NCBI RefSeq assembly: GCF_014203095.1
Contig: NZ_JACHIG010000003.1
Coordinates: forward strand, 310,001 to 374,000
Direction of reading: 5' to 3'
Source: Prosthecobacter vanneervenii
Lineage (GTDB): Bacteria; Verrucomicrobiota; Verrucomicrobiia; Verrucomicrobiales; Verrucomicrobiaceae
DNA length: 64,000 bases
Within the stretch, counting starts at the first letter, position 1; the number at the start of each line of letters is the position of its first letter. A model generated the notes under the pieces. The model ran no database searches. It was not told where the DNA came from and was given only the letters and a program-made list of their open reading frames with translations. Both the position numbers and the translations under genes were made by a program. This document shows positions 17,601 through 42,185 of the stretch, piece after piece.

Positions 17601-20600
17601 CTAGCGCCTGCGCCGCATCATGATGGCCCATGCCCCAAGAGGCAGGAGCCACAGGCGGCCAGGCTCCGGAACCGCAACGACAACGCTGACCACGCCCGTG
17701 GAATAAAGCGCGCTGGTGTCCCACTGCAGCCCGGCGCCGAGCGTGGGCAGATCGAGAGTGGTGAAGGTGCCGACAGCAGAGCCGGAGAGGGTATTCCAGT
17801 CGATGAGTTTCCAGGCGTCCCCGGCGGTCCAGCCTGAGAGGCTATTGAGATTCTGAACACGCAGAGTGCTTCCCGTATTGAGCGTCATCGTGCCGCCGAT
17901 GATCAGCATGTCCGCCGCTGTGGAGTCATTGAGCACACCCGAGCCAGCGCCGCTGACGAGATCCATCAGCAATACGCTGGTGGTGTCCATGAGCAAGGTG
18001 CCAGCGCCTGAGGTCGTGATGGCCACGTCTGCCGCATTTCCGGAAACCAGCCCGATGCTCAAAGTGCCCTGCACCAAAACGGGATTTCCCGCAGCAGGAG
18101 CGATGCTGCCGGTGCCCGCCAGCGTGGCAGAGGCAGCCACCGTCACAGTGCCGCTGCCTGTGGCTGAACCAGACACATTGGTAAACACCAGCGTGCCCGA
18201 GCTCACGGTGGTGCCGCCGCTGTAGGTATTGGAACTGGAGGCGAGCGTGGTGGAGCCGCCTGGGGTATTGCTTATGCCGAGCGAGCCCGCTCCGGTGATG
18301 TTGTTGCTGATGGTAAAGCTGTCGCTGCGATTAGTAACCAGCGTGGCACCGGAGGAGATGGCCACATCTCCACTGCCCACCATGCCGGCCGTGCCACCAT
18401 TGCCGAGCTGAAGCGTGCCTGCGGACACCGTCGTGCCGCCGGTATAAGTGCTATTGCCAGTCAACGTCCAGCGACCGGCTCCGGCCTTGTCCAGCGTGAC
18501 GACGCTGCTGGGGCCGTCCGTCATGCTCACGATCTCATTGGCCCCCGTGTTTGTTCCGGAAAGGCGGAAGGTGCGTGCCAGCGTGGTGTTTCCTGCTGCG
18601 GTGAAAGCGGAGGTAAACTTCACTGAGCCTGTGCCGTTGTTTTCCACCACACCGGTCAGGGACGGCATGGTCTGGCCATCGGTGTACATGCGGATGGCGC
18701 GGTCTGTGACCGCATCTGCGGTGCCCACATAGCGCAGCGTGGAGACTGTGGCGTTGACAGAATTGGTGTCATTCATGTCGATGGTGGGCACCAGGGAGCC
18801 CGTACCCAAGGAGCTGGCGGTGCCGGCATTGGCCAGCACACTGACCTCAAAGGTGGAGCGGCCGATATTGTTGCGCCCGGCATACGTGTTGGCGGAGCCC
18901 AGCTGAATGGTGCCGGCTGAGAATGCCTCCAATGACAGGTTGTTCTCATTGGTGCCAGCGCCGCCGATCATGAGATTGCGCCAGTCGTTCGTGCCGGTGT
19001 TTTGCATGCTGATGGTGTAGAGCGCAGAACCGCCGCCCACGAGGGAGCTGGTGGTGCCAAGAACATTGATGACGGTGAAGCTTTCAGCGCCTGTGCTGGC
19101 CCCGTTGCCAAAGATGAGCTTGGCCGCGACTCCCACCGAACCGATGGTGAAGGTGGGATCTGTGGCGCCGGTGAAGCGATTGGTCCCTTGGATGCTCAGA
19201 GTGCCCTCCGTGACACGCACCTGCGTGGCACTGCTGCTGGCAATGCCAGCGAAGGTGATGAGGCCCGGGCCTGCGGTGGTGAAGGCCGTGCCGGTGACTG
19301 TGATGGTGGATGCGAGTGTGAGATTTCCGGAGCCGTAATTGTAGATGTTAAAATCGTTGGAGGAATTGGTGATGGTGCGCGCCGTGCTGCTGTCGCTCTG
19401 GATCAACACATTCCCCGAGACCCCGGAGGTGACGAGCAGGCCACCGCTGGAGTTGGTGATGTTTCCCGTCAGTGTGAGGGTGCTGCCGGAGGTGGCATTA
19501 AAACGAAGGGAGTTGATGGTGACCGCCCCCTGGGTGGTGGCGCCAGCTGCCAAGTCCACATTCGAATTGGCGGTGAAGGTAGATGAGTAGGAGGCAAGGC
19601 CTGTGATGGCTCCGGCGGTATTCATCGTGCCAGCCGTGCCGTCATTGCTGAGAGCCAAGGCGGAGCCGCCGTCGCTAAGGGAAACCTGGAAGGAGCTGGC
19701 GGTAGAATTCACCACGTAGTATGTCACTCCCGCCGTGAGACCACCTGGAGCGGTGCCCGTGAAGGCCACCTGAGTGCCGTTGGCCAGATTGCCAATGGAA
19801 ATGGTATCACTGGAATTAACCCAAGCCACTGAGGTGGTCTGGGTGGCAGCGGAGGTGGCCCAGCTAGTGCCTCCCACCACGAGGCCGCCATTCAAAATGC
19901 CGTTGGTATTCAGCGTGGTGGTGGTGACGCTGCCGCTGGTGGGCAGCGTGATATTGGTGGCACTGCCTGAGCTGGAGGCGCGCAGGATGGTGCCGAGTGC
20001 CAGATTCATCGTGCCGCCCACACCAGAAGTGACCACGATGGGGCTGCGTCCTGCGGTGAGGGTGGTGGAGATGACCTCCTGGAGATTGGTCGTTCCATCT
20101 TTTCCTGTGAGCTGAAGAGTGCCGCCGTTGAGCGAGAGATTGTTGCTGCTGACGATGAGATTGGAGGTGGCCGCGGCATTGGCAAAATCGAAGTTCAAGA
20201 CACCTCCGCGTATGGTGGCGAGAATCGTCGCCAGCGTGGTGGCACTGGTAGTGGCCGGAGCGAAGGTGCTGGCCACGCGGAGATTCACCGTGCCGCTGTC
20301 GGCTTTGGCGATGCCCGTCATGTAGGTAGCAGGGGTAGTGCCATTGGTGATGGCGCCGGTGATGTTGATCGTGCCTGCCCCGCCGAGCGTAACTGTGCGT
20401 GTGCCAGCGGCTGTGGCTCCGGAGCGCAGGGTGCCGGATATGGTGAGCGTGGTGCCGGAATCTGCGATGATGGTGGTGAGTGCCGTGGTGCCGATGCTGA
20501 GGATGCCGGACAGTGTGTTGTTTCCAGACACATTGCGGATAGCGCCAGTGCTGTTGTAGCCCGCGCCGTCAAAAGTGATCGGCTCCGCGAGGACGGTGTC

Positions 20601-22955
20601 GGAGGCGTAGGCCAGCTCAAGGGAAGCACCTGCGGTGATGGTGGTGCTTCCCGCCGTGGTTCCGAGAGCATTGACATTGGTGACGCGCAGAATGCCCGCA
20701 GTCACCGCGATCGTGCCTGTGATGACGGAATTGTCCCCGCCCAAAGTCAGCCTGCCTGTGCCTGACTTGGTGATGGTCTGAGTGGTGGAGTTAATGCGGC
20801 TGTTGACCACGATGTCTCCCGAACCAGCGAAGGTGAGGGCGAACCCACTGCCCACGGAAATGGAATTGGTGGTGGCGTTGGTGTTGAAGAACGTGAGCGT
20901 GCCGGCATCTGACTGGATCAGCACCGGCTGTGTAGTCGTCACAATACCGCTGATCGTGTTGTTGCCACTGAGGTTGCGGATCACGCCATCAGAAGCCACG
21001 CCTGTGCCACCGACACTGAGAGTGCGTGCCAGGGTGATGCCGCCCGAGAGCTGAAGCGCCGCGCCATCCAGGACCGAAACCGTGCCCGTGGTGCCGAGAG
21101 CGCCTGAGCTGCGGAGCTCGAGCGCTCCTGATGCGATAAGCGCGCCGCCGCCCAGCACGTTGGCACCCGTGAGAACGGTTTTGGAACCGCTCACGCCGTT
21201 GACGATCAACGTGGTCGCGCCAGAGCCGTTGGCCAGGATGTTGGCATCCACCTGCAGCACGGAGGAGGTGGAGTTGTTCGTGAGGATAACCTGCCCTGCT
21301 GTGTTGCTGGCACCTCCTGCAGTCAGCGTGCCGCCGGAGATGGTGAGGTTTTGCGCGCCCGCCGCCAGCTGGATGCCGCCCGTGGCACCGAGGCGCAAGA
21401 TATTGGAACCAAGGGTGATCGTGCGTGCCAGCCATGGGTCTGCCATGCTGATGGTGCTGATGTCGGTGGTAGCGCCAGTGAGAGTCACGCTGCCGCCCGA
21501 AGCATTTGAAACCGTGAGATTTTTCGTGGCGACATAGCCACTGACTGCTGAGAGAGCCTTGCCAGTGCTGTAGGTGAGATCGCCCGTGTAACCGCCAACC
21601 ATGGCACCACCCACCACCTGGGCCCAAGAGGTGATGCCGGTGGCGTCTTTATAAGTGACCCAAGGGCCAAGAAAGCCCGTGCTGGTGGTGGTGATGGAAC
21701 CTGATGACGGAGCGATGAAGGCGAGCAAACCTGTGCCGCTACGAGTGATCGTGCCAAGGCTCAAATCCATGCTGCCACCGGCACCGGAAGTCAGCGTGAC
21801 CACGCCCAAAGTCCCCGCTGACGTGGTGACAGCACCAAAGCGCTGCGAATTGGCGGTGGCTGACTTGCCGGTGATGTTCAGGAAGGTGGCTGCGTTGCTG
21901 CTGCCTACAAAGCTAAGCCCGCCGGCCGTGACACCGTTGTAGAAGATGTCCGTCGTGGGAGCACCGGAAGCGGTGAAGTCCAGAATGGTGACAGCGCCCA
22001 CGCCGCCGCTGCGGCCGAGGGTGGTGGTGCCAGTGAAGTTGCTGGCGCCAGTGAAAGTCATGGTGGACGAGCTGAGCACCGCTGAACGTTGAAGCCCCTG
22101 AGAACCACCGGTCTCGCCGATGGCACCACTGACAATCGTGCCTGTGACGCCGGAGTTGCTGTTGAGCAGCGCCGTGCTGGTCAGTGTCATAGCCCCGCTG
22201 ATGGTGATGCTGCTGGCATCGATGCGAATGGCACCATTTCCCTGCCCTGTGCCTCCGAGTGTGATGGGCACGGCGTAATTGCTGGAGGTGCCATTGATGG
22301 CGTAAACACTGCCAGACTCAATGACGACCCTGCTGAGCGCGGACTGGGCGGCGGCACTGCTGGTGAGAATAAAATTTCCGAGAGTGGTGGAGGTGGCCTT
22401 GATGGTGAGTATTCCGGTGAGGCCGGTATTGGTGCCGCTGAAGCGGAGATACTGGAAGCTGCCGCTGGAGGCGCCTGTGGCACGCTGGATGGTAATGTTG
22501 TTGCCGGTGACGGCAGTGCTGAGATTTACAAACTGATTGCCCGTACTGCCTGAGGAAACCGAGTCTCCCAGTTCGATCACAGCATCGTTGGCAAAGGCCA
22601 GTGTGCCGCTGCCCGAGAAGGTGAATGAGAAGGGGGAAGGCAAACCGGAAAAGGGCAAAAACTTCATGCCTCCCAGATTGATGGTTCCAGAAACGGTGAT
22701 CGTGCCACCCGTGGTGGCTGTGGGACTGCTGGGCACTCCAAACACGGCTATGGTGGTGGCGTTGGCGGCGTTGTTCCACGCGACGTTGCTGGTGCCGTTG
22801 TTCCAATTGGTCGTGGTGGTGTCCCAGGTGGCGTCGCCGGTCACCTGAATGCCGGCGGAGGATGAGAGATCCCAGCTGAGCTGAGCGCGTAGCACAGAGG
22901 CATGGAGAAGCACGAGCACGATGCAGCTGCATCGCACCAAGGCGGTGATATTCAT
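17601..22955 (-). CDS. giant secreted protein of autotransporter-type beta repeats with a PEP-CTERM-like tail
   Basis: The 1784-residue product starts with a signal peptide (about residues 1-24). Almost all of the rest is Ser/Thr/Gly-rich beta-solenoid sequence. Many copies resemble the autotransporter-associated beta-strand repeat, such as STYTGGTTVSAGTLQLGNGG and NTYSGGTTVSSGTLVFTN. A larger module appears at least twice (starting GGSMDLSLGTITRSG and GGTMNLALGTILRAS, about 600 residues apart), suggesting internal duplication. There is no C-terminal beta-barrel. The end instead reads VPEPGRLWLLPLGAWAIMMRRRR, a PEP motif, hydrophobic helix and Arg cluster as in PEP-CTERM proteins sorted by exosortase. 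It is likely a surface or exopolysaccharide-associated protein. It lies on the opposite strand inside an otherwise contiguous set of arg genes. Confidence 0.8.
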   Translation of the reverse strand: MNITALVRCSCIVLVLLHASVLRAQLSWDLSSSAGIQVTGDATWDTTTTNWNNGTSNVAWNNAANATTIAVFGVPSSPTATTGGTITVSGTINLGGMKFLPFSGLPSPFSFTFSGSGTLAFANDAVIELGDSVSSGSTGNQFVNLSTAVTGNNITIQRATGASSGSFQYLRFSGTNTGLTGILTIKATSTTLGNFILTSSAAAQSALSRVVIESGSVYAINGTSSNYAVPITLGGTGQGNGAIRIDASSITISGAMTLTSTALLNSNSGVTGTIVSGAIGETGGSQGLQRSAVLSSSTMTFTGASNFTGTTTLGRSGGVGAVTILDFTASGAPTTDIFYNGVTAGGLSFVGSSNAATFLNITGKSATANSQRFGAVTTSAGTLGVVTLTSGAGGSMDLSLGTITRSGTGLLAFIAPSSGSITTTSTGFLGPWVTYKDATGITSWAQVVGGAMVGGYTGDLTYSTGKALSAVSGYVATKNLTVSNASGGSVTLTGATTDISTISMADPWLARTITLGSNILRLGATGGIQLAAGAQNLTISGGTLTAGGASNTAGQVILTNNSTSSVLQVDANILANGSGATTLIVNGVSGSKTVLTGANVLGGGALIASGALELRSSGALGTTGTVSVLDGAALQLSGGITLARTLSVGGTGVASDGVIRNLSGNNTISGIVTTTQPVLIQSDAGTLTFFNTNATTNSISVGSGFALTFAGSGDIVVNSRINSTTQTITKSGTGRLTLGGDNSVITGTIAVTAGILRVTNVNALGTTAGSTTITAGASLELAYASDTVLAEPITFDGAGYNSTGAIRNVSGNNTLSGILSIGTTALTTIIADSGTTLTISGTLRSGATAAGTRTVTLGGAGTINITGAITNGTTPATYMTGIAKADSGTVNLRVASTFAPATTSATTLATILATIRGGVLNFDFANAAATSNLIVSSNNLSLNGGTLQLTGKDGTTNLQEVISTTLTAGRSPIVVTSGVGGTMNLALGTILRASSSGSATNITLPTSGSVTTTTLNTNGILNGGLVVGGTSWATSAATQTTSVAWVNSSDTISIGNLANGTQVAFTGTAPGGLTAGVTYYVVNSTASSFQVSLSDGGSALALSNDGTAGTMNTAGAITGLASYSSTFTANSNVDLAAGATTQGAVTINSLRFNATSGSTLTLTGNITNSSGGLLVTSGVSGNVLIQSDSSTARTITNSSNDFNIYNYGSGNLTLASTITVTGTAFTTAGPGLITFAGIASSSATQVRVTEGTLSIQGTNRFTGATDPTFTIGSVGVAAKLIFGNGASTGAESFTVINVLGTTSSLVGGGSALYTISMQNTGTNDWRNLMIGGAGTNENNLSLEAFSAGTIQLGSANTYAGRNNIGRSTFEVSVLANAGTASSLGTGSLVPTIDMNDTNSVNATVSTLRYVGTADAVTDRAIRMYTDGQTMPSLTGVVENNGTGSVKFTSAFTAAGNTTLARTFRLSGTNTGANEIVSMTDGPSSVVTLDKAGAGRWTLTGNSTYTGGTTVSAGTLQLGNGGTAGMVGSGDVAISSGATLVTNRSDSFTISNNITGAGSLGISNTPGGSTTLASSSNTYSGGTTVSSGTLVFTNVSGSATGSGTVTVAASATLAGTGSIAPAAGNPVLVQGTLSIGLVSGNAADVAITTSGAGTLLMDTTSVLLMDLVSGAGSGVLNDSTAADMLIIGGTMTLNTGSTLRVQNLNSLSGWTAGDAWKLIDWNTLSGSAVGTFTTLDLPTLGAGLQWDTSALYSTGVVSVVVAVPEPGRLWLLPLGAWAIMMRRRR

Positions 22956-28342: not shown

Positions 28343-29641
28343 TCACTTTTTCATCAAGCCGATGACAGCGGAGGTCATGGCCGAGACACCGGTCTCGATG
28401 CTGGGCTCGGGGACGGGCTTGAAGTAAGGCGAATGCAGAGACGGCAGTGTGGTGCCCTTGGCTTTGGCGGCAGCGACCAGTGCAGGGGGCTGAGTGCCGA
28501 GCCAGAACATGCACAGGGGCACCTTGTCTTTCGTCATACCGTATTCGGAGAAATCCTCGGCTCCCATGACGGGCTCGCGAGTGAGCACATTGTCAGCACC
28601 TATGGCGGCGCCGATGTAGCCGCGCACCTCCTGGCAGAGCTCGGGCTGGTTGTAGAGTGCAGTGGCGCTGTCGTCGGAAAGGAGCACCTCCGGCATTTTG
28701 TCTGCGGGCATGCCAGCCGCCTCGGCCTGGGCTTTGACGATGCGTTTGATGGAATCCACGAGGTGCGTGCGCGTCTCTTTTCGATAGCTGCGCAGAGTGA
28801 GCTGCAAGCGCACTTCATCGGAGATGATGTTGCTCTTGGTGCCGCCGTGGATGCTGCCCACGGTGACCACAGCGGGATCGCCCGGCTTGACCTCACGGCT
28901 GACGATGGTCTGCAAGGCCAGTACGATCTGCGAGGAGAGCACGATGGGGTCTTTGCAAAGATGGGGCATAGAGCCGTGGCCCCCCACGCCTTTGACCACG
29001 ATCTCCACGGAGTCCACGTTCGCCAGCGCAAAGCCCTCCACAATGCCGATGGTGCCGTGCGCCATGTCCGACGCGCAATGCAGGGCAATGGCCTTGTCGG
29101 GCTTGGGGAACTTGGAGAACAGCCCGTCCCGCAGCATGAAGCGCGCACCAAGCACGCGCTCCTCGGCAGGCTGGCCGATCATGACCAGAGTGCCGTGCCA
29201 CTGGTCCTTGAGTGCAGCCAAGGCACGAGCCGTGCCGACGAAGCTCGTCATGTGCACATCGTGGCCGCAGGCGTGCATGACATTCACCTCGCGGCCGAGG
29301 TCATCTTTCACCACCTTGGTGCTGGCGTAGGGTGCACCGGTCTGCTCCTTCACGGGCAGGGCATCGAGATCTGTGCGCACCAGGATCACAGGGCCTACAC
29401 CATTTTTCAAAACGCCGACGACGCCGTGGCCGCCGAAGTTTTCGGTGACCTCCAGCCCGGCAGCGCACAGTTCTTTGGCAATGCGCGCGGATGTTTCAGT
29501 TTCGTGCAGCGAGAGTTCCGGGTTGCCGTGCAGCTCTTTGTAGAGAGAGACGAGCGAGGGCAGTTCCTGTTTCACCACTGAGGGGAGATCCGCAGCAGCG
29601 AGAGATGAAGTGACCAGCAGAGACAAAAAAAGCGGCTTCAT
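28343..29641 (-). CDS. exported M20-family amidohydrolase/peptidase
   Basis: This member of the M20D group (hippurate hydrolase/IAA-amino-acid hydrolase-like) cleaves amide bonds of N-acyl amino acids or short peptides with two metals. The ATG at 29641 opens a signal peptide (MKPLFLSLLVTSSLAAADL). Metal-site blocks are VRTDLDALPVKEQTG, NVMHACGHDVHMTSFVG and GQPAEERVLGARFMLRDG. The dimerisation domain begins at GGHGSMPH, and GAEDFSEYG carries a final ligand. The 432-residue length is usual. It converges on the LptF/G gene with 6 bases between the stops and is followed on the same strand upstream by an esterase gene (39 bases), a possible pair for uptake of acylated substrates. Confidence 0.87.
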   Translation of the reverse strand: MKPLFLSLLVTSSLAAADLPSVVKQELPSLVSLYKELHGNPELSLHETETSARIAKELCAAGLEVTENFGGHGVVGVLKNGVGPVILVRTDLDALPVKEQTGAPYASTKVVKDDLGREVNVMHACGHDVHMTSFVGTARALAALKDQWHGTLVMIGQPAEERVLGARFMLRDGLFSKFPKPDKAIALHCASDMAHGTIGIVEGFALANVDSVEIVVKGVGGHGSMPHLCKDPIVLSSQIVLALQTIVSREVKPGDPAVVTVGSIHGGTKSNIISDEVRLQLTLRSYRKETRTHLVDSIKRIVKAQAEAAGMPADKMPEVLLSDDSATALYNQPELCQEVRGYIGAAIGADNVLTREPVMGAEDFSEYGMTKDKVPLCMFWLGTQPPALVAAAKAKGTTLPSLHSPYFKPVPEPSIETGVSAMTSAVIGLMKK

Positions 29642-33895: not shown

Positions 33896-34912
33896 ATGCC
33901 CTCAGGTTCCATCGGCTCTCATCGCGCCTTCATGGGTGTAAGCATCACGCTGTGCGTCATCCTATCGCTGACTCTCTATGTGGGTTGGAAATGGTATTTT
34001 GACAGCTTGGTTAGCAGGACAACACTGATAGAACTGGCCAAGAAGGCTGAAAAACGCGTTCAGGATCTGGAAAATCTAGGGATCAACGTCGAGCCGCCGC
34101 ATGCTGATCTTAGCGCCGCCACACCGCTCAAAATTATGACAGGTAGCGCTGAGAGCCCTGGATCACCGGCAGCCATCACCAGCAGCCAATCCCCTTCATC
34201 CCCCCAGCCGACTTCTGCGCATCCCGCAAACTCAGTCATTAAGGAACTACCTTTGAAGGAATCGAGCGAAGAATTCACTCGAGCCCTGGAACTGCTGGAA
34301 ACTTACTGGAAAACCCCGTCATGGAAAGATCGCGTCTCCCTGGTAGCCAATTCAGACAAGGTCGCCGCCATGATGAAGGACTACTATGAGGTGCAGGGAG
34401 GCAAAGACCCGGTGCCAGGCAACCTGCTGGGCAAAGCACGCTATGAGATCGACGGGACGGAAATTCTGTATTTCAGCTATGGCAGCAGCCGTCCGACCGG
34501 ATCTTTAGAAATTGCCATGCTGCATGGCCCGGATGGGAAGTTCCTGATCGACTGGGAAAGCCTGACAGGCTACGGCGAACTCTCTTTCCACGAATTCCGC
34601 TCTCAGCGACCGTCCAAGCCTGTGACCATGCGTGCCTACGTGAGGCTTTTTGACTATTACAATTTTGAATTCTCCGACGCCAAGCGTTACATTTGCATCA
34701 AGCTGATATCGGAGAGCGGAGATAGCTCCATCTATGCCTACTGCGAGCGTGGAACCAAACTGTCCCGATGGCTAGAATCTGACCTAGCCACCACAGGGCC
34801 AACGGGCTTCAAAGGCTATCTTATGAAGCTGTCTTTCCCGCCAAGTGCGCAGTCAAATCAATGCGTAAAACTGGAACAGGTCGTAGCCCAGCGATGGCTC
34901 AAGCTTCCATAA
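33896..34912 (+). CDS. unknown membrane-anchored protein
   Basis: I do not recognise this 338-residue protein. It has one transmembrane helix near the N-terminus (VSITLCVILSLTLYVGW). After that come a short helical or coiled-coil stretch, a low-complexity Ser/Pro/Ala linker (about residues 70-112) and a globular C-terminal half facing the periplasm. The C-terminal domain includes LIDWESLTGYGELSFHEF and a KPVTMRAYVRLFDYYNF segment. The phrase layout is like a lineage-specific family, but this cannot be confirmed here. The DNA is less GC-rich than its neighbours. A ferredoxin gene converges with it (43 bases between stops). Confidence 0.7.
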   Translation: MPSGSIGSHRAFMGVSITLCVILSLTLYVGWKWYFDSLVSRTTLIELAKKAEKRVQDLENLGINVEPPHADLSAATPLKIMTGSAESPGSPAAITSSQSPSSPQPTSAHPANSVIKELPLKESSEEFTRALELLETYWKTPSWKDRVSLVANSDKVAAMMKDYYEVQGGKDPVPGNLLGKARYEIDGTEILYFSYGSSRPTGSLEIAMLHGPDGKFLIDWESLTGYGELSFHEFRSQRPSKPVTMRAYVRLFDYYNFEFSDAKRYICIKLISESGDSSIYAYCERGTKLSRWLESDLATTGPTGFKGYLMKLSFPPSAQSNQCVKLEQVVAQRWLKLP

Positions 34913-35363: not shown

Positions 35364-38300
35364 ATGAAAACACTCGCTTTCGCCCTCCTGCTGCCGGCTT
35401 CCTTGCTGGCAGAAAATGAAATCGGATTCATCGAACGCTTTGCCCTTGCTACCGATCGAGAAAAAGCCCTCGGTGAGCTGGTGCCGGGCTCGCAGGAGTA
35501 TTACTTTTTTCATGCACTGCATTATCAAAACACCCGAGATACTGCGAAGCTAGAGCAGCTTCTCAGCCAGTGGAGGGAGCGCATGCCCGATGAGAACGAG
35601 TCCCGGCGCATCATCCTTAACCGTGAAGCGATTTTGAATTATGAGCGTGACCCACAGGCCACGCTGAAGTACCTGGTTGAGCGTCTGCACATTCGCCATG
35701 ATCACCGACAGCAGATGCGTGACCCCAAACCTGATCTGCCCACAGAACTGGATCAGGCCAGGATCCAACGTGAGATATTCCTGCGTGATGCCATGCAGCA
35801 TGATCGCAGCCTTGGCTCTCTGGACGAGAGAGAACTGGCCGCCCTCATTCGCGATCAGGTGCCGCTTACAACCGATCAACGCCGAGCTGTTCTGAGCAGG
35901 CTTCAGCGCCCGGATGTGCAGAATCTGGTCCAAGCCATCATCGATGATCTACAGGCGGACAAGGCACGCAGCTTTGGCTACCTGCCGATCCATAAGGCGC
36001 TGCTGTCCGAGCAACTGGACGAACTGCTGAAAACTTTCCCCCACTGGCTGGGACAGCAGGCGTTTGTTTACACCCGGCTGCGGAAGATGGCCCCGTCCGC
36101 CGATGTGAACCTGGAGTATGACGATGCCGAGCGTGAGGCCTGGCTGGAGCGTGTGTGGGCTTTTGCCCAAAAGCTGCCCCCTTCCCAAAACACGCTCAAG
36201 GCACGCATCCTGTACCAGCGTCTGGATCATGACCGCAAAAAGGGCGTGTATGATCGCGCGCGCTTCAGCGAGTACCTGAAGCTGCCGCGCCAGCTCGACT
36301 ACATCAACTACACCTACATCAAGGACATCAAGCCGGGAGAGATCTGCAACCTGAACGCGGATCTGGGGGAGGCGCTGCTGGTCTCGCCGCCCATCACCAC
36401 AGACGAGCCACTCGTTCGCGAGTACTTCCTGAATCTCTTTGCCGCCGAAGTCAAAGCGGATGCCGACCCCAACGAGGTGCTGGCGCAGTGGACGACTTAC
36501 ATCGCGGAAGAGTGGCTGACGCCGGTGCTGGCAGAGGCGCTGATCACCCAGGGCATCGGCAGCCCGGAACGCTGGGCGTCCCTGCTCACTCCTGCGGCAT
36601 TTCAAAAGCTGAAGGAGCGTGTGGACATTGAGTTTCCAGCCACCAACAAGCCGCAGTTTCTGCCGGGAGATGACATCCAGTTTGACGTGACCGTCAAAAA
36701 CACGCCCAAGCTGATCGTGAAGATATTTGAGCTGAACACGCTGAACTTTTTCCAGACCCAGCAGCGCCAGCTGAACACCGACGTGAATCTGGACGGGCTG
36801 GTGGCCAACAGCGAGGAGACGCACACCTTTGAGGGCGGCCCCTTTCTGCGAAAGCGGCAGACATTCAAGTTTCCCGCGCTCAAAGGCAAACGCGGCGCGT
36901 GGATCATCGAGTTCATCGGCGGCAGCCGCAGCAGCCGTGCCCTCATCCGCAGCGGAGAGTACCACCTCCTACAGCAAACCGGCCCCGCAGGAGACCTGAT
37001 CCTGGTGCTTGATGAAAAGAACCAGCCGGTCAACGATGCCGTGGCGTGGTTTGAGGGACGCAAGCTGACACGCCATGAAAAGCTGGGGCGCATCGTGATC
37101 CCATTCACCAGCCAGCCCGGGGGCAAAAACCTCATCATCGGAGACGCCGCCGGCACCTTTGCCACGCTAGCAAGCTTCACTCATCATGCGGAGCGTTATG
37201 AGCTGGATGCGCAATTCCACATCGAGCGCGAGCAGCTTCTGTCACGGCGCGAGGCCACCCTGGCGGTGCGCACCGCCCTGATGCTGGGGGAAGCTCAGCT
37301 TTCCCCGGGGATGCTGAGCGAGCCCAAGCTCGCCATCACCAGCACCACGCATGACGGCATTTCCACCACACACGAGATCAAGGGGCTGAAGCTGAGCGCC
37401 GACAGCGTCTTCACCCACAGGCTGACGGTGCCTGAACGGCTTGCCTCCCTCAGCGTCACCTTCAGCGCGCAGATCGAGGCGGTGAGTGAAGGCGGCAGCA
37501 AGAAAGAACTCACCGCCAGCCATACCTGGACGCTCAATGGCATCGACCAAACCGATGCCGTGAATGACGGGCACCTGAGCACCTTTGACGGCAAGCGGGT
37601 GTTTGAACTGCTGGGAAAAAATGGCGAGCCTGCAGCCGATCAGCAGGTGATCTTCACCTTTCGTCATCATGGATTCAGCCGCCCCCAGATCATCCCGCTG
37701 AGCACTGATGCAAAAGGCCGTGTGCAGCTGGGCAGGCTCTCAGGCATCGAGTCCGTGGCCGCCAAGATTCCGAACGAGCGAGAAACTGTCTGGCCGCTCA
37801 CTGAGAGTGAGTGCACGCTGGCTGACGTGATTCATGCGAGAGAGAGCGAAGTGATACGTGTGCCCCTGCGAGACGTGAGCAGCCAGACTCCTTCACTTCT
37901 GGTGCAGAGCGCGGGCACCTTCACCGAGGATCTCTCCAAACAGCTCAAGGCAGAGAATGGCTTTCTCATCATGGAAGGTCTCAAGCCAGGAGACTACTCG
38001 CTGAGAACCGGCAAGCAGCTCATCACCGTCAAAGTGGCGCATGGAGACAGCATCGGCGGCTGGGTGGTGGGCAGGCACCGCCAGCTGGAACTGAAGGGCA
38101 ACAACCCACTGCAGATCACCAGTGTGGAAAGCGGCCAAGAATTCATCACCATCAATCTGGCCAACAGCAGCTCGTTTGCGCGCGTGCATTTTGCGGCATC
38201 ACGCTTTGACCCGGGCAGCGGCATCTTCGGCGGGCTGGGCGGTTTCAGGCGCTTTGGCCCAGGATCGGGAACTCCAGCGCGCAATCCGAATCTGTACTCC

Positions 38301-41300
38301 ACAGGCCGTGAGATCGGAGATGAGTACCGCTACATTCTCGAGCGCCGCTACGCGAAGATCTTTCCAGGCAACATGCTCACCAGGCCAAGACTGCTACTGA
38401 ACCCATGGGAGATCAGCAGCACCGATCTCAACGAGCTCTCCCAGCAAGCAGGACAGTCAGCAGGCAGCACGCGCGGTGGAGCCGCAGGTGCGATGAGCAC
38501 CCCGATGCCCGCACCTGCTGCCAAACCGCCGGAAGGAAAAGGGCCGCAGGGCGGCACCAATCTCGACTTTCTCGCCACATCCGCTCCGGTCATTTACAAC
38601 CTGGTGCCTGACAAGGATGGCGTGGTCCGCATTGAGCGGAAGGCACTGGGAGACCGCCAGCACGTGCAGATCTATGCTGAAGATCTGCACCATGCCTCCT
38701 GGCGCACGCTCACCCTGCCAGAGGCTTCCACGAAGTTTTCAGATCAACGGCTGGCGAAAAACCTCGATCCAACGAAGTCATTCACGGAAGAAAAAGAGAT
38801 CAGCGTGCTGGAAACCGGCAAGACACTCGTACTGACCGATGCCCAGACCGGCAAACTGGAAACCTACGACACACTCGGCAGCATCCACACTTTATTTACC
38901 ACGCTGAGCCAAGACGAGCACCTGGCCGAGTTTGCCTGGCTGCTGGACTGGCCCAAGCTGAAGGAGGATGAGAAGCGCAAGAAGTATGGCGAGTTTGCCT
39001 GCCATGAGCTCAACTTCTTTGTCCAGCGCAAGGACAAGGCCTTCTTTGACGCAGTCGTGAAGCCCTACCTCGAGAACAAGAAGGACAAGACTTTCATGGA
39101 TGAGTTTCTCCTTGGCCGGGACCTCGCGCATCATCTGGAACCCTGGGCCTATGCTCGACTCAACATGGTGGAGCGCATTCTGCTGGCACAGAGAATCGCA
39201 GGGGAAGCCCCCAACACAGCCAGACATGCACGGGAGCTCTGGGAGATGATTCCACCGAACCCTGAGCAGCGAGATTTTCTTTTTGAAACAGCCATGCGCG
39301 GACGCAGCCTGGAAAACAATACGGGCCTGGGGTTGAGCTATGGTGCAGCTGACGCACCGGCACCTGCCGCTCCCGGGGTCAATAACACCGGGGCTGCTGT
39401 GGCGGCGGACCCTTTTGCGGCTGGAGGAGCGGCACCGGCAGCCGAATACGGCGCCATGCAGGATCCAGACGTGGCGCGCCTAGTGCAGAAGATGAACTCG
39501 ATCATTCTGCCCTCGGTGAACTTTCAGAATGCCTCGGTTGAGGAAGCGGTGGCGTTTCTCCAGCGCAAAAGCAGGGAGCTCGATCGGAGCCCCTCGTCAG
39601 CGGGAGGAAGAGGGGTTCGTCTTGTGATTTCACCTACAGAGTTCAAGCTGAACGCGAGCATCAGCCTTGATCTCAGAGATGTGCCATTGTCGGAGGCCCT
39701 GAGGTATGTCACCGAGCTGGCGCAGATGAAATACAAGGTGGGACCTGATGCCGTTGTCATCGTTCCCTTGAGTGAAAACGCGATTGTAGAACGCTCGCAG
39801 ACAGTCGGCGAACTGCGCAACCCGACAGCCGTCAGAAAAGCAAACACCGTGGAACTCCTCAAAGACCGTAGCGTTAACTCACTGATGGTACTCGGCGGTG
39901 CCAGCACCTACACCGGTGCCACCTCCATCAATGCCGGCACCATCGCGCTCTTTGATAAAACGACTGCCGATGACGTGCGTCAGGAGGTGCGCGCGCTATT
40001 CCGCGCACTTGGATCCACCAAGGAGTGGGCGGAGAACAACTACTACAAGCTGCGCATCGAGGATCAGAATGACAGCCTCATCAGCATCAACGGCTTCTGG
40101 CGCGACTATGCAGCCTGGGTGGCGGCGGGTTCGAAAGGTGGATTTGTCTCGGCGAATGTCGCCGAGGCCAGCAGCACCTTTGCCGAGATGATGCTGGCGC
40201 TGGCGGTGCTCGATCTGCCATATGAGGCCGCAAAGCACAGCACCAAGGCCGAAAACGGCAGCTTGACCTTCACCGCTGGCGGCCCCTGCATCCTGTATCA
40301 TAAGGAGATTAAAACCGCCGCCGCCGATGGCAATGCCCAAGGCCATTTGCTCGTCTCCCAGAGCTTTTTCCGGCAGGACGACCGCTACCGCCAGGAGCGG
40401 AACGAGAAGCACGAGAAATACGTGACCACGGAGTTTCTGACAGGCGTGACTTATGGTGCGAGCATCGTGGTCACCAATCCCACCAGCAGTCCTGTCAAGG
40501 CCGTGGTGCTGCTGCAAATCCCGCAGGGATCCCTGCCGGTGCTAGGCAGCCAGACCACCAAGTCCAATCAGGTGAGACTGGAACCCTACACCACGCAAAC
40601 ATTCGAGTATCACTTCTATTTCCCCTCAACCCCCGCTCAACAGGGACTCAAGTTTGCCCATTTCCCAGTTACTGTGACGACCCAAGCCGGGGCGTCGGCG
40701 GCAAAGCCGTTTGATTTCAATGTGGTGTCCAAGCTGACCGAAGTGGACAAGACATCCTGGGATTATGTATCGCAACATGGCAGCGAGGCTGATGTCTTCA
40801 GCTTCTTTGAACAGAACAATCTTGAAAACCTGGACCTGGAGCGAGTGGCCTGGCGCTGCCGTGAAAACGCAGGCTTCTACCAGAAGCTCATCGCCTTCAT
40901 GCGGACGCACCACCTCAAGAGCGACACGATCTTTACGTATGCGCTGCTCCACAATGACGAGGCCACGCTGCGGGAGTGGCTGAAGCAGCGCTTTGGCGAT
41001 GCATGCGGACCGTATTTTTCCAGCAAGCTGCTCACGCTGGATCCCATCGAGCGCCACAGCTACGAGCATCTGGAATATCTGCCGCTGGTCAATCAGAGGG
41101 CCCATCGTGTGGGCAATGAATGGAGGATCGCCAACACGGAGCTGCTGGGGCAGTACCACAAGCTGCTTGCCATCCTGGCGCACAAGCCTCAGCTCGATGC
41201 CGCAGACAATCTGAGCGTGGTCTATTACCTGTTTTTGCAAGACCGCGTGGACGAGGCCCTGACACGACTGAAATCGATCGACGCCAGCAAGCTGTCCACA

Positions 41301-42185
41301 CAGCTCCAGCATGACTATCTCAAGTGTTATGCCGCCTTTTATGAGGGTGCGCTGCCCACGGCACGCGGCCTAGCCGCCAGGCATGCAGACCATCCGGTAC
41401 CGCGCTGGAGGAAGCTTTTTGCGGAGGTAACGTCTCAGCTGGACGAAATCGAAGGCAAGGGAGCAAAACCTGCGGCTGATGGCAAACCTGATCGTGAAAA
41501 GCAGCAGTCGGCGCTTGCCAGCACAGAGCCGGGCTTTGACCTCAAGATTGAGAACAAGACCCTCTCTCTGACCTGGAAAAACCTCAGTGAAGTGACGCTG
41601 AACTACTACCTGATGGACCCGGAGTTCAGCTTCAGCAGCAATCCTTTTGTGAGCCAGGATGCCGGGCGCTTCAGCATCATCAAACCCAACCAGACAGCCA
41701 CGCATAAACTCCCTCAGAACGCAAGCGCGCTCGAACTGGCTCTTCCTGCGGAATTCAACAAATCCAATGTGCTCGTGGAGGTGCTGGGAGCCGGACTGCG
41801 CAAGACGCAGGCCTATCACGCCAGCACGCTGAAGCTCGCGCTGACGGAAAACTACGGCCGCCTGGAAGTACGGGACGCCACGACGGACAAGCCGCTGCCG
41901 AAGACCTATGTCAAAGTGTATGCGCAGCTGGCCAATGGCACGGTGCGCTTCTTTAAAGACGGCTATACCGACCTGCGCGGCCGCTTTGACTATGCCAGCC
42001 TGAACGGACCTGACGGCGCTGCCAATCTTCCTTTGCCTCCCGTGCATGAGGCTCCGCCAGCGAACGGTCTCGACTACCAGATGCTCAAGCCCGCCGAACT
42101 GCCAGCGGTGGAAAAGCTGGCCATCCTCATCCTGAGCGACACCCACGGCGCCGCAGTGAAGGAAGTGCAGCCTCCGGGACAATGA
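35364..42185 (+). CDS. giant secreted protein with alpha-2-macroglobulin-like region and inserted secretin short (STN) domain
   Basis: The 2273-residue product has a signal peptide (MKTLAFALLLPASLLAEN) and long helical, TPR-like regions near both ends (about residues 20-400 and 1780-2010). Residues 425-900 look like beta-sandwich MG domains of bacterial alpha-2-macroglobulins (FLPGDDIQFDVTVKN, RGAWIIEFIGG, GDLILVLDEKNQPVNDAVAWFEG). No thioester motif (CxEQ) is present. A low-complexity Ala/Pro/Gly stretch (about 1325-1365) leads into a secretin short domain of about 100 residues (about 1366-1468). That domain contains PSVNFQNASVEEAVAFLQRKS and ISLDLRDVPLSEALRYV. A segment resembling one autotransporter beta repeat follows (STYTGATSINAGTI, about 1511-1524). 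There is no secretin barrel. The function is unknown; a periplasmic or surface scaffold is plausible. Confidence 0.75.
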   Translation: MKTLAFALLLPASLLAENEIGFIERFALATDREKALGELVPGSQEYYFFHALHYQNTRDTAKLEQLLSQWRERMPDENESRRIILNREAILNYERDPQATLKYLVERLHIRHDHRQQMRDPKPDLPTELDQARIQREIFLRDAMQHDRSLGSLDERELAALIRDQVPLTTDQRRAVLSRLQRPDVQNLVQAIIDDLQADKARSFGYLPIHKALLSEQLDELLKTFPHWLGQQAFVYTRLRKMAPSADVNLEYDDAEREAWLERVWAFAQKLPPSQNTLKARILYQRLDHDRKKGVYDRARFSEYLKLPRQLDYINYTYIKDIKPGEICNLNADLGEALLVSPPITTDEPLVREYFLNLFAAEVKADADPNEVLAQWTTYIAEEWLTPVLAEALITQGIGSPERWASLLTPAAFQKLKERVDIEFPATNKPQFLPGDDIQFDVTVKNTPKLIVKIFELNTLNFFQTQQRQLNTDVNLDGLVANSEETHTFEGGPFLRKRQTFKFPALKGKRGAWIIEFIGGSRSSRALIRSGEYHLLQQTGPAGDLILVLDEKNQPVNDAVAWFEGRKLTRHEKLGRIVIPFTSQPGGKNLIIGDAAGTFATLASFTHHAERYELDAQFHIEREQLLSRREATLAVRTALMLGEAQLSPGMLSEPKLAITSTTHDGISTTHEIKGLKLSADSVFTHRLTVPERLASLSVTFSAQIEAVSEGGSKKELTASHTWTLNGIDQTDAVNDGHLSTFDGKRVFELLGKNGEPAADQQVIFTFRHHGFSRPQIIPLSTDAKGRVQLGRLSGIESVAAKIPNERETVWPLTESECTLADVIHARESEVIRVPLRDVSSQTPSLLVQSAGTFTEDLSKQLKAENGFLIMEGLKPGDYSLRTGKQLITVKVAHGDSIGGWVVGRHRQLELKGNNPLQITSVESGQEFITINLANSSSFARVHFAASRFDPGSGIFGGLGGFRRFGPGSGTPARNPNLYSTGREIGDEYRYILERRYAKIFPGNMLTRPRLLLNPWEISSTDLNELSQQAGQSAGSTRGGAAGAMSTPMPAPAAKPPEGKGPQGGTNLDFLATSAPVIYNLVPDKDGVVRIERKALGDRQHVQIYAEDLHHASWRTLTLPEASTKFSDQRLAKNLDPTKSFTEEKEISVLETGKTLVLTDAQTGKLETYDTLGSIHTLFTTLSQDEHLAEFAWLLDWPKLKEDEKRKKYGEFACHELNFFVQRKDKAFFDAVVKPYLENKKDKTFMDEFLLGRDLAHHLEPWAYARLNMVERILLAQRIAGEAPNTARHARELWEMIPPNPEQRDFLFETAMRGRSLENNTGLGLSYGAADAPAPAAPGVNNTGAAVAADPFAAGGAAPAAEYGAMQDPDVARLVQKMNSIILPSVNFQNASVEEAVAFLQRKSRELDRSPSSAGGRGVRLVISPTEFKLNASISLDLRDVPLSEALRYVTELAQMKYKVGPDAVVIVPLSENAIVERSQTVGELRNPTAVRKANTVELLKDRSVNSLMVLGGASTYTGATSINAGTIALFDKTTADDVRQEVRALFRALGSTKEWAENNYYKLRIEDQNDSLISINGFWRDYAAWVAAGSKGGFVSANVAEASSTFAEMMLALAVLDLPYEAAKHSTKAENGSLTFTAGGPCILYHKEIKTAAADGNAQGHLLVSQSFFRQDDRYRQERNEKHEKYVTTEFLTGVTYGASIVVTNPTSSPVKAVVLLQIPQGSLPVLGSQTTKSNQVRLEPYTTQTFEYHFYFPSTPAQQGLKFAHFPVTVTTQAGASAAKPFDFNVVSKLTEVDKTSWDYVSQHGSEADVFSFFEQNNLENLDLERVAWRCRENAGFYQKLIAFMRTHHLKSDTIFTYALLHNDEATLREWLKQRFGDACGPYFSSKLLTLDPIERHSYEHLEYLPLVNQRAHRVGNEWRIANTELLGQYHKLLAILAHKPQLDAADNLSVVYYLFLQDRVDEALTRLKSIDASKLSTQLQHDYLKCYAAFYEGALPTARGLAARHADHPVPRWRKLFAEVTSQLDEIEGKGAKPAADGKPDREKQQSALASTEPGFDLKIENKTLSLTWKNLSEVTLNYYLMDPEFSFSSNPFVSQDAGRFSIIKPNQTATHKLPQNASALELALPAEFNKSNVLVEVLGAGLRKTQAYHASTLKLALTENYGRLEVRDATTDKPLPKTYVKVYAQLANGTVRFFKDGYTDLRGRFDYASLNGPDGAANLPLPPVHEAPPANGLDYQMLKPAELPAVEKLAILILSDTHGAAVKEVQPPGQ

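Follow-up and report, generated by a model that had tools for sequence, protein, structure and literature searches.

A predicted macroglobulin-like protein of Prosthecobacter vanneervenii with secretin and autotransporter-repeat modules in a hypervariable linker

The stretch of Prosthecobacter vanneervenii DNA that we analysed (64,000 nucleotides, hereafter the window; contig NZ_JACHIG010000003.1, positions 310,001 to 374,000) encodes a 2273-residue protein, P0001, which is predicted to be a thioester-less relative of the alpha-2-macroglobulins (A2M) and complement proteins. Between its two conserved blocks lies a hypervariable linker with two modules of other envelope proteins, a secretin short (STN) domain and a single autotransporter-associated beta-strand repeat (PATR) phrase. 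For f2, a second family of the same order, phylogenetic trees show that the secretin block in this linker has been copied recurrently from the secretin gene of the same genome. Guarding the envelope is the role usually proposed for bacterial macroglobulins, and the repeated acquisition of a ring domain of the pilus secretin, species-matched in one family, points to either the partner of this macroglobulin-like protein or the target of its attackers. The family also offers a clear natural example of repeated copying of a domain from one gene to a linker encoded by another, unrelated one.

According to the open reading frame list and its translation, P0001 is encoded by a single stop-free frame with an ATG start in a genome of 6.66 Mb and 33 contigs, and one open frame is retained in the orthologues of 18 congeners and in 10 proteins from other families of the order. 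The protein contains seven cysteines and, we infer, is secreted. Its features are as follows, in window coordinates.

35364-42185 (+): whole gene, 2273 residues, predicted secreted protein like those of the A2M superfamily (translation, orthologue alignment, fold comparison)
35364-35411 (+): probable signal peptide MKTLAFALLLPASLLA, without a lipobox Cys (by eye in the translation; orthologues similar)
35430-36611 (+): N-terminal region, residues 23-416, conserved in the family and largely helical by eye (translation, alignment)
36612-38729 (+): row of predicted macroglobulin-like beta domains, residues 417-1122 (AlphaFold model residues 18-723)
38361-38543 (+): disordered Ala/Gly/Pro-rich segment, residues 1000-1060, putative bait-region equivalent (position, low pLDDT)
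38874-39311 (+): helical segment preceding the linker, residues 1171-1316 (AlphaFold model)
39312-39998 (+): hypervariable Ala/Pro-rich linker, residues 1317-1545, with both borrowed modules (alignment; pLDDT mostly <50)
39474-39791 (+), Pfam core 39621-39767: STN domain of Amuc_1098/PilQ-type secretin origin, residues 1371-1476 (profiles, homology)
39882-39953 (+): single PATR phrase, residues 1507-1530 (Pfam, NCBIfam)
40317-40745 (+): predicted MG7-like beta domain, residues 1652-1794 (model B 363-505 against C3/C3b)
40758-41459 (+): helical region, residues 1799-2032, in the CUB-TED place by order of elements, without CxEQ (AlphaFold model)
41508-42173 (+): C-terminal beta region, residues 2049-2270, NIE-MG1-like, containing the family signature FFKDGYTDLRGRFDY (VIA, pattern search)

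A search over 56 relatives found orthologues in about 20 congeners and in other families of the order, and in 28 orthologues two conserved blocks, at about 1-1316 and 1546-2273, are 32-78% identical to P0001. When named genomes were scanned by alignment, at least 580 relatives were confirmed; the best 80 belong to Verrucomicrobia, Planctomycetes, Lentisphaerae and Desulfobacterales, and they have in common the C-terminal signature FFKDGYTD/LRGRFDY. By these alignments the family is widespread in PVC bacteria. Of the genes near it in P. vanneervenii, those compared with Pfam and NCBIfam were assigned to KdsD, the metallo-beta-lactamase fold, GDSL and TraB; the neighbours are conserved within the genus only, and no informative operon was found among them. 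Two plus-strand ORFs of the window, 33896-34912 and 28433-29581 (338 and 382 residues), are conserved in congeners and match no Pfam family. No paper on the P0001 family or on STN-bearing macroglobulins was found among the open-access papers searched.

The macroglobulin fold of P0001 is detectable by structure only, since searches of PDB sequences with the single protein and with a profile gave nothing significant. The first-pass annotation, made by a model from the letters and their translations, had described the first half as macroglobulin-like, and this reading holds: no Pfam MG model matches P0001, yet AlphaFold model A (residues 400-1330, alignment of 64 rows, mean pLDDT 84.6) is matched by Foldseek to C3, CD109, A2ML1, C5 and bacterial A2M with E down to 2e-15, and in VIA-align the A2Ms of E. 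coli and Salmonella rank first (Z 12.0-13.5). Model B covers residues 1290-2273 (pLDDT 73). Residues 1652-1794 align with C3/C3b at a VIA Z of about 11 (about 2.3 A over 104 residues), and the C-terminal region aligns with NIE-MG1 of E. coli A2M at a VIA Z of 12.7 (3.4 A over 180 residues). The second half had been called helical, which is right for part of it, but it also includes the MG7-like beta domain and the NIE-MG1-like C-terminal beta part. As the latter (window 41508-42173) resembles an N-terminal part of E. coli A2M, the domain order of the family seems permuted. Overall TM-scores against A2M are low, and our claim is therefore one of domain fold and part of the domain order, with the overall shape left out. 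Within these bounds the predicted fold shows both flanks of the linker to be alpha-2-macroglobulin/complement-like and thioester-less.

Two disordered segments interrupt this fold. Residues 1000-1060 (600-660 of model A) are variable and have a pLDDT of 40-69, and the bait region of E. coli A2M (Arg923-Leu942) precedes residue 1019 of that protein by a distance similar to that of this segment in P0001; judged by position alone, residues 1000-1060 are probably the equivalent of the bait region. The second segment is the linker itself (residues 1317-1545), which lies downstream of the first, flanked by helical parts and ahead of the MG7-like domain. Structure prediction, which the first-pass annotation had proposed as a check, recovers the MG fold, but over the STN segment it gives no confident fold (pLDDT <50), so the STN assignment rests on sequence profiles and homology. 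The annotation had also noted the absence of a thioester and of a barrel, correctly on both counts. CxEQ is absent from P0001, with 1 stray match in 82 family sequences. The secretin pore domain PF00263 has no Pfam match in P0001 (the 914-residue secretin of the genome gives E 2e-30), no TonB-receptor plug or barrel family in Pfam is matched, and neither an autotransporter barrel, a PEP-CTERM signal nor any further PATR unit is found with Pfam and NCBIfam.

Both modules that had been read by eye behind an Ala/Pro-rich linker are confirmed by profile, and both are housed in that Ala/Pro-rich segment, residues 1317-1545. For the STN domain there is a PF07660 match in Pfam (1420-1468, E 1.2e-5) and a partial match to NCBIfam Amuc_1098_fam (1366-1473, E 2.2e-24). 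The PATR phrase is matched by PF12951 at 1509-1529 (E 3e-4) and by TIGR02601 at 1508-1529 (E 1.6e-5), and since PATR matches in orthologous linkers reach E 3.3e-11, this is not a chance match. The linker cannot be aligned outside the genus. Homologues with and without the 1320-1530 segment, whose comparison had been suggested, both exist. Of the 19 proteins from the genus, only 2 have STN (P0001 and that of Prosthecobacter sp. D1-2020), while the PATR phrase is found in most linkers and is decayed in others; in another family (f8) the PATR phrase stands elsewhere in the linker, right behind a conserved FETALRGRALE. When 93 linkers were compared with Pfam and NCBIfam, the sole recurrent families were PATR/TIGR02601 (14 members) and Amuc_1098-type STN or STN-N1 (10 members, NCBIfam E down to 8e-72), and random domain capture was rejected on the grounds that just these two module kinds recur. 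On this comparison STN and PATR are optional passengers of the hypervariable linker, outside the core of the protein, and because most orthologues have no STN, the function of the core is independent of it.

PATR units are numerous in the genome of P. vanneervenii, with more than 150 copies in large ORFs of up to 11,644 residues. The protein at 17.6-23.0 kb of the window, which had been read as made of the same repeat with a PEP-CTERM signal, is such a protein by profile match (17601-22955, minus strand, 1784 residues). In a 0.88 Mb sample of the genome P0001 is the sole protein outside the PATR class to have a PATR phrase, and for that sample the idea of the phrase as a mobile coding element across unrelated genes was rejected. 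Proteins that are otherwise unrelated, the secretin included, have a short motif, ADPFA(A/G), in common in their Ala/Pro-rich linkers (window 39405-39440, L066, L067-L070 and many further linkers); it is possibly a recombination microhomology.

The genome encodes a 914-residue TPR-STN-N1-secretin of the Amuc_1098/PilQ type (L066:13238-15979; Pfam Secretin E 2e-30), whose STN is about 60% identical to that of the P0001 linker. A tree built from 40 STN sequences places the linker inserts of P. vanneervenii (G000) and of a congener (G030) as sisters (100/92), next to the STN of a giant protein of genome G015 and inside the STN set of their own genus (100/100). By this tree, the STN of P0001 derives from the genus's own secretin lineage. 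G000 and G030 are not sisters in the flank trees, so several losses of STN, or exchange, must be assumed. Between the two STN domains amino acid identity is 66.7% although their fourfold sites are saturated (38%), and in the flanking linker it is about 40%: STN is under purifying selection. Pairing with the own secretin was not seen for these two inserts, and re-copying is accordingly shown in the second family only; the giant proteins of the genus also gave no clear signal of such pairing.

Other proteins of this and related genomes carry similar blocks. Giant proteins unrelated to P0001, found in some congeners (L067:1083-9605, L068:3394-13227, L069:3680-12883, L070:4346-10111, L070:418-4575; 2841-3278 residues where whole), have a TPR-STN-N1 secretin block and PATR phrases in their linkers, the identical two module kinds of P0001, and these linkers also carry a phrase of 25 residues from the secretin tail, ERLITPNIVSQPVFS. 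An ORF of 1217 residues (L066:1868-5518, minus strand), some 8 kb away from the secretin gene, has STN, repeated secretin N1-like segments and a weak secretin match. A membrane protein of the same genome that is BlaR1/M56-like by look (L071:4338-6917, minus strand) has two STN-like domains.

Family f2 of the order (genera g18 and g19) has STN together with N1 in the same linker (linkers L276, L277, L278, L280, L281 and L282; secretins L285, L287 and L301-L304). The linker STN of f2 nests with the f2 secretins (100/100), and the ends of the insert differ, being STN alone in Prosthecobacter and STN-N1 in f2. This separate nesting with the own secretin sets, at 100/100 in each case, and the differing boundaries show independent acquisition of STN in the two groups. 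In nine f2 genomes each linker pairs with its own secretin or, in one case, with a cluster of two close species. Across 14 linker/secretin pairs, 12 linkers match their own secretin best out of 20, another gives a tie for it and the last ranks it third; the linker label needs 13 changes on the tree, at least 9 of them forced. Forcing a single linker clade in the nine genomes costs 267 lnL units (AU p 3.6e-41). As a control, the f2 secretin paralogue B forms a single clade at 100/100 with no genome-wise pairing. Taken together, the trees show recurrent, genome-specific copying from secretin to linker in f2. The direction follows from the long linker branches and short secretin branches. The STN-N1 block begins and ends at about the same points in almost every genome, which is better explained by conversion of an insert already in place than by repeated insertion. 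We infer that the route is most simply recurrent gene conversion of the linker by the secretin gene, repeated fresh capture being less likely. At fourfold sites the linkers are 31-52% identical to their own secretins, so no conversion event is recent. These pairs are a good system in which to seek gene conversion tracts. The same data weigh on the reading of one ancient STN insert, inherited vertically and lost many times, with the genome-wise pairing an artefact of unequal rates. Both families do use the same linker, and the G000 and G030 inserts are sisters, but the rejection of one linker clade in f2 already contradicts this reading, fast linker branches would be expected to attract one another rather than slow secretins, and linkers share loop sequences with their own secretins; we regard it as barely credible.

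As to function, the linker may dock the protein to its own secretin or mimic the secretin as a decoy. Our preferred reading, held tentatively and at slightly less than even confidence, is that P0001 is a secreted, thioester-less A2M-like protein whose linker modules are re-copied from the cell's own envelope proteins and which docks at the secretin. Over evolution the linker has repeatedly taken up in-frame copies of the organism's own envelope modules, namely the type IV pilus secretin's ring domains (STN or STN-N1) and single PATR strands of surface beta-repeat proteins, and in f2 the secretin block is kept, or re-made, from the secretin of the same genome. The linker STN would then pack homotypically on the STN/N1 ring of the own secretin, placing P0001 at the pilus pore, where the macroglobulin-like body would act in the envelope as a thioester-less macroglobulin; such packing would demand a match to the own secretin. 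The first-pass annotation had suggested a periplasmic docking scaffold, and this idea is indirectly favoured by the origin of the STN block in the type IV pilus secretin family and by its recurrent re-copying in f2, data that a decoy role would explain equally. A close rival, and the main functional one, fits the same evidence. The linker could display the cell's own exposed proteins, a secretin ring domain and a PATR strand, to proteases, phage or bacteriocin proteins, and binding or cleavage there would trigger or occupy the macroglobulin-like body, the match being maintained by selection and gene conversion. Both recurrent module kinds stem from envelope or surface proteins, the match of linker to secretin is genome-specific, no outer membrane protein of Akkermansia is more abundant than PilQ (PMC4960237), and the bacterial type II A2M MagD, which is thioester-less, still traps protease after bait cleavage (PMC5764988). 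The borrowed modules, however, lie in the later linker and outside the probable bait segment 1000-1060, and many orthologues are module-free; we judge this alternative unlikely.

The null reading is that the linker tolerates any in-frame insert, that PATR and STN are taken up simply as the coding sequences with the most copies or the strongest tendency to recombine in genomes of this kind, and that conversion homogenises STN without function. The linker is indeed hypervariable and disordered, the PATR copies exceed 150, each genome has many secretin-related STN copies, the PATR phrase is decayed in several orthologues, and unrelated giant proteins bear the same two module kinds. Purely passive uptake does not sit well with an STN under purifying selection in a linker that is much less constrained, with the lack of any other isolated PATR phrase in 0.88 Mb of the genome, or with a secretin paralogue B that is not homogenised with A, and we think it somewhat unlikely. 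Plant NLR receptors carry integrated-decoy domains, and P0001 could by analogy be a complement-like protein with integrated decoys, in which a conversion-matched copy of the secretin makes proteases, phage or toxins directed at the secretin meet the macroglobulin-like trap first, a possibility that we consider distinctly improbable.

The closest known systems are the bacterial A2Ms of type I (E. coli YfhM/ECAM, Salmonella Sa-A2M) and type II (P. aeruginosa MagD), with which P0001 is predicted to have in common the chain of MG domains, a disordered segment at the probable bait position, an MG7-like domain and a helical region at the TED position; with type II it also shares the missing thioester. 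P0001 differs from them in having no sequence match to the Pfam MG models, in its long helical and hypervariable insert ahead of the MG7-like domain, and in the place of the NIE-MG1-like part, which is C-terminal in P0001 and near the N-terminus in the bacterial A2Ms. General neighbour profiles, which are not Mag-specific, gave no sign of a mag-type operon or PBP1c near the gene. The Amuc_1098/PilQ secretins of Verrucomicrobia are the source of the STN block, and of STN-N1 in the f2 linkers, but P0001 has neither their pore domain nor their TPR-STN-N1 order, only a lone STN in its linker. With the PATR/TIGR02601 proteins it has one recognisable repeat unit in common; unlike them it has this unit in single copy, without a beta-helix, an autotransporter barrel or a PEP-CTERM signal. 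Plant NLR receptors with integrated decoys are unrelated to P0001, and the likeness is one of pattern: there an immune-type protein has a variable site that repeatedly takes in domains copied from possible targets, and the linker of the P0001 family appears to do likewise.
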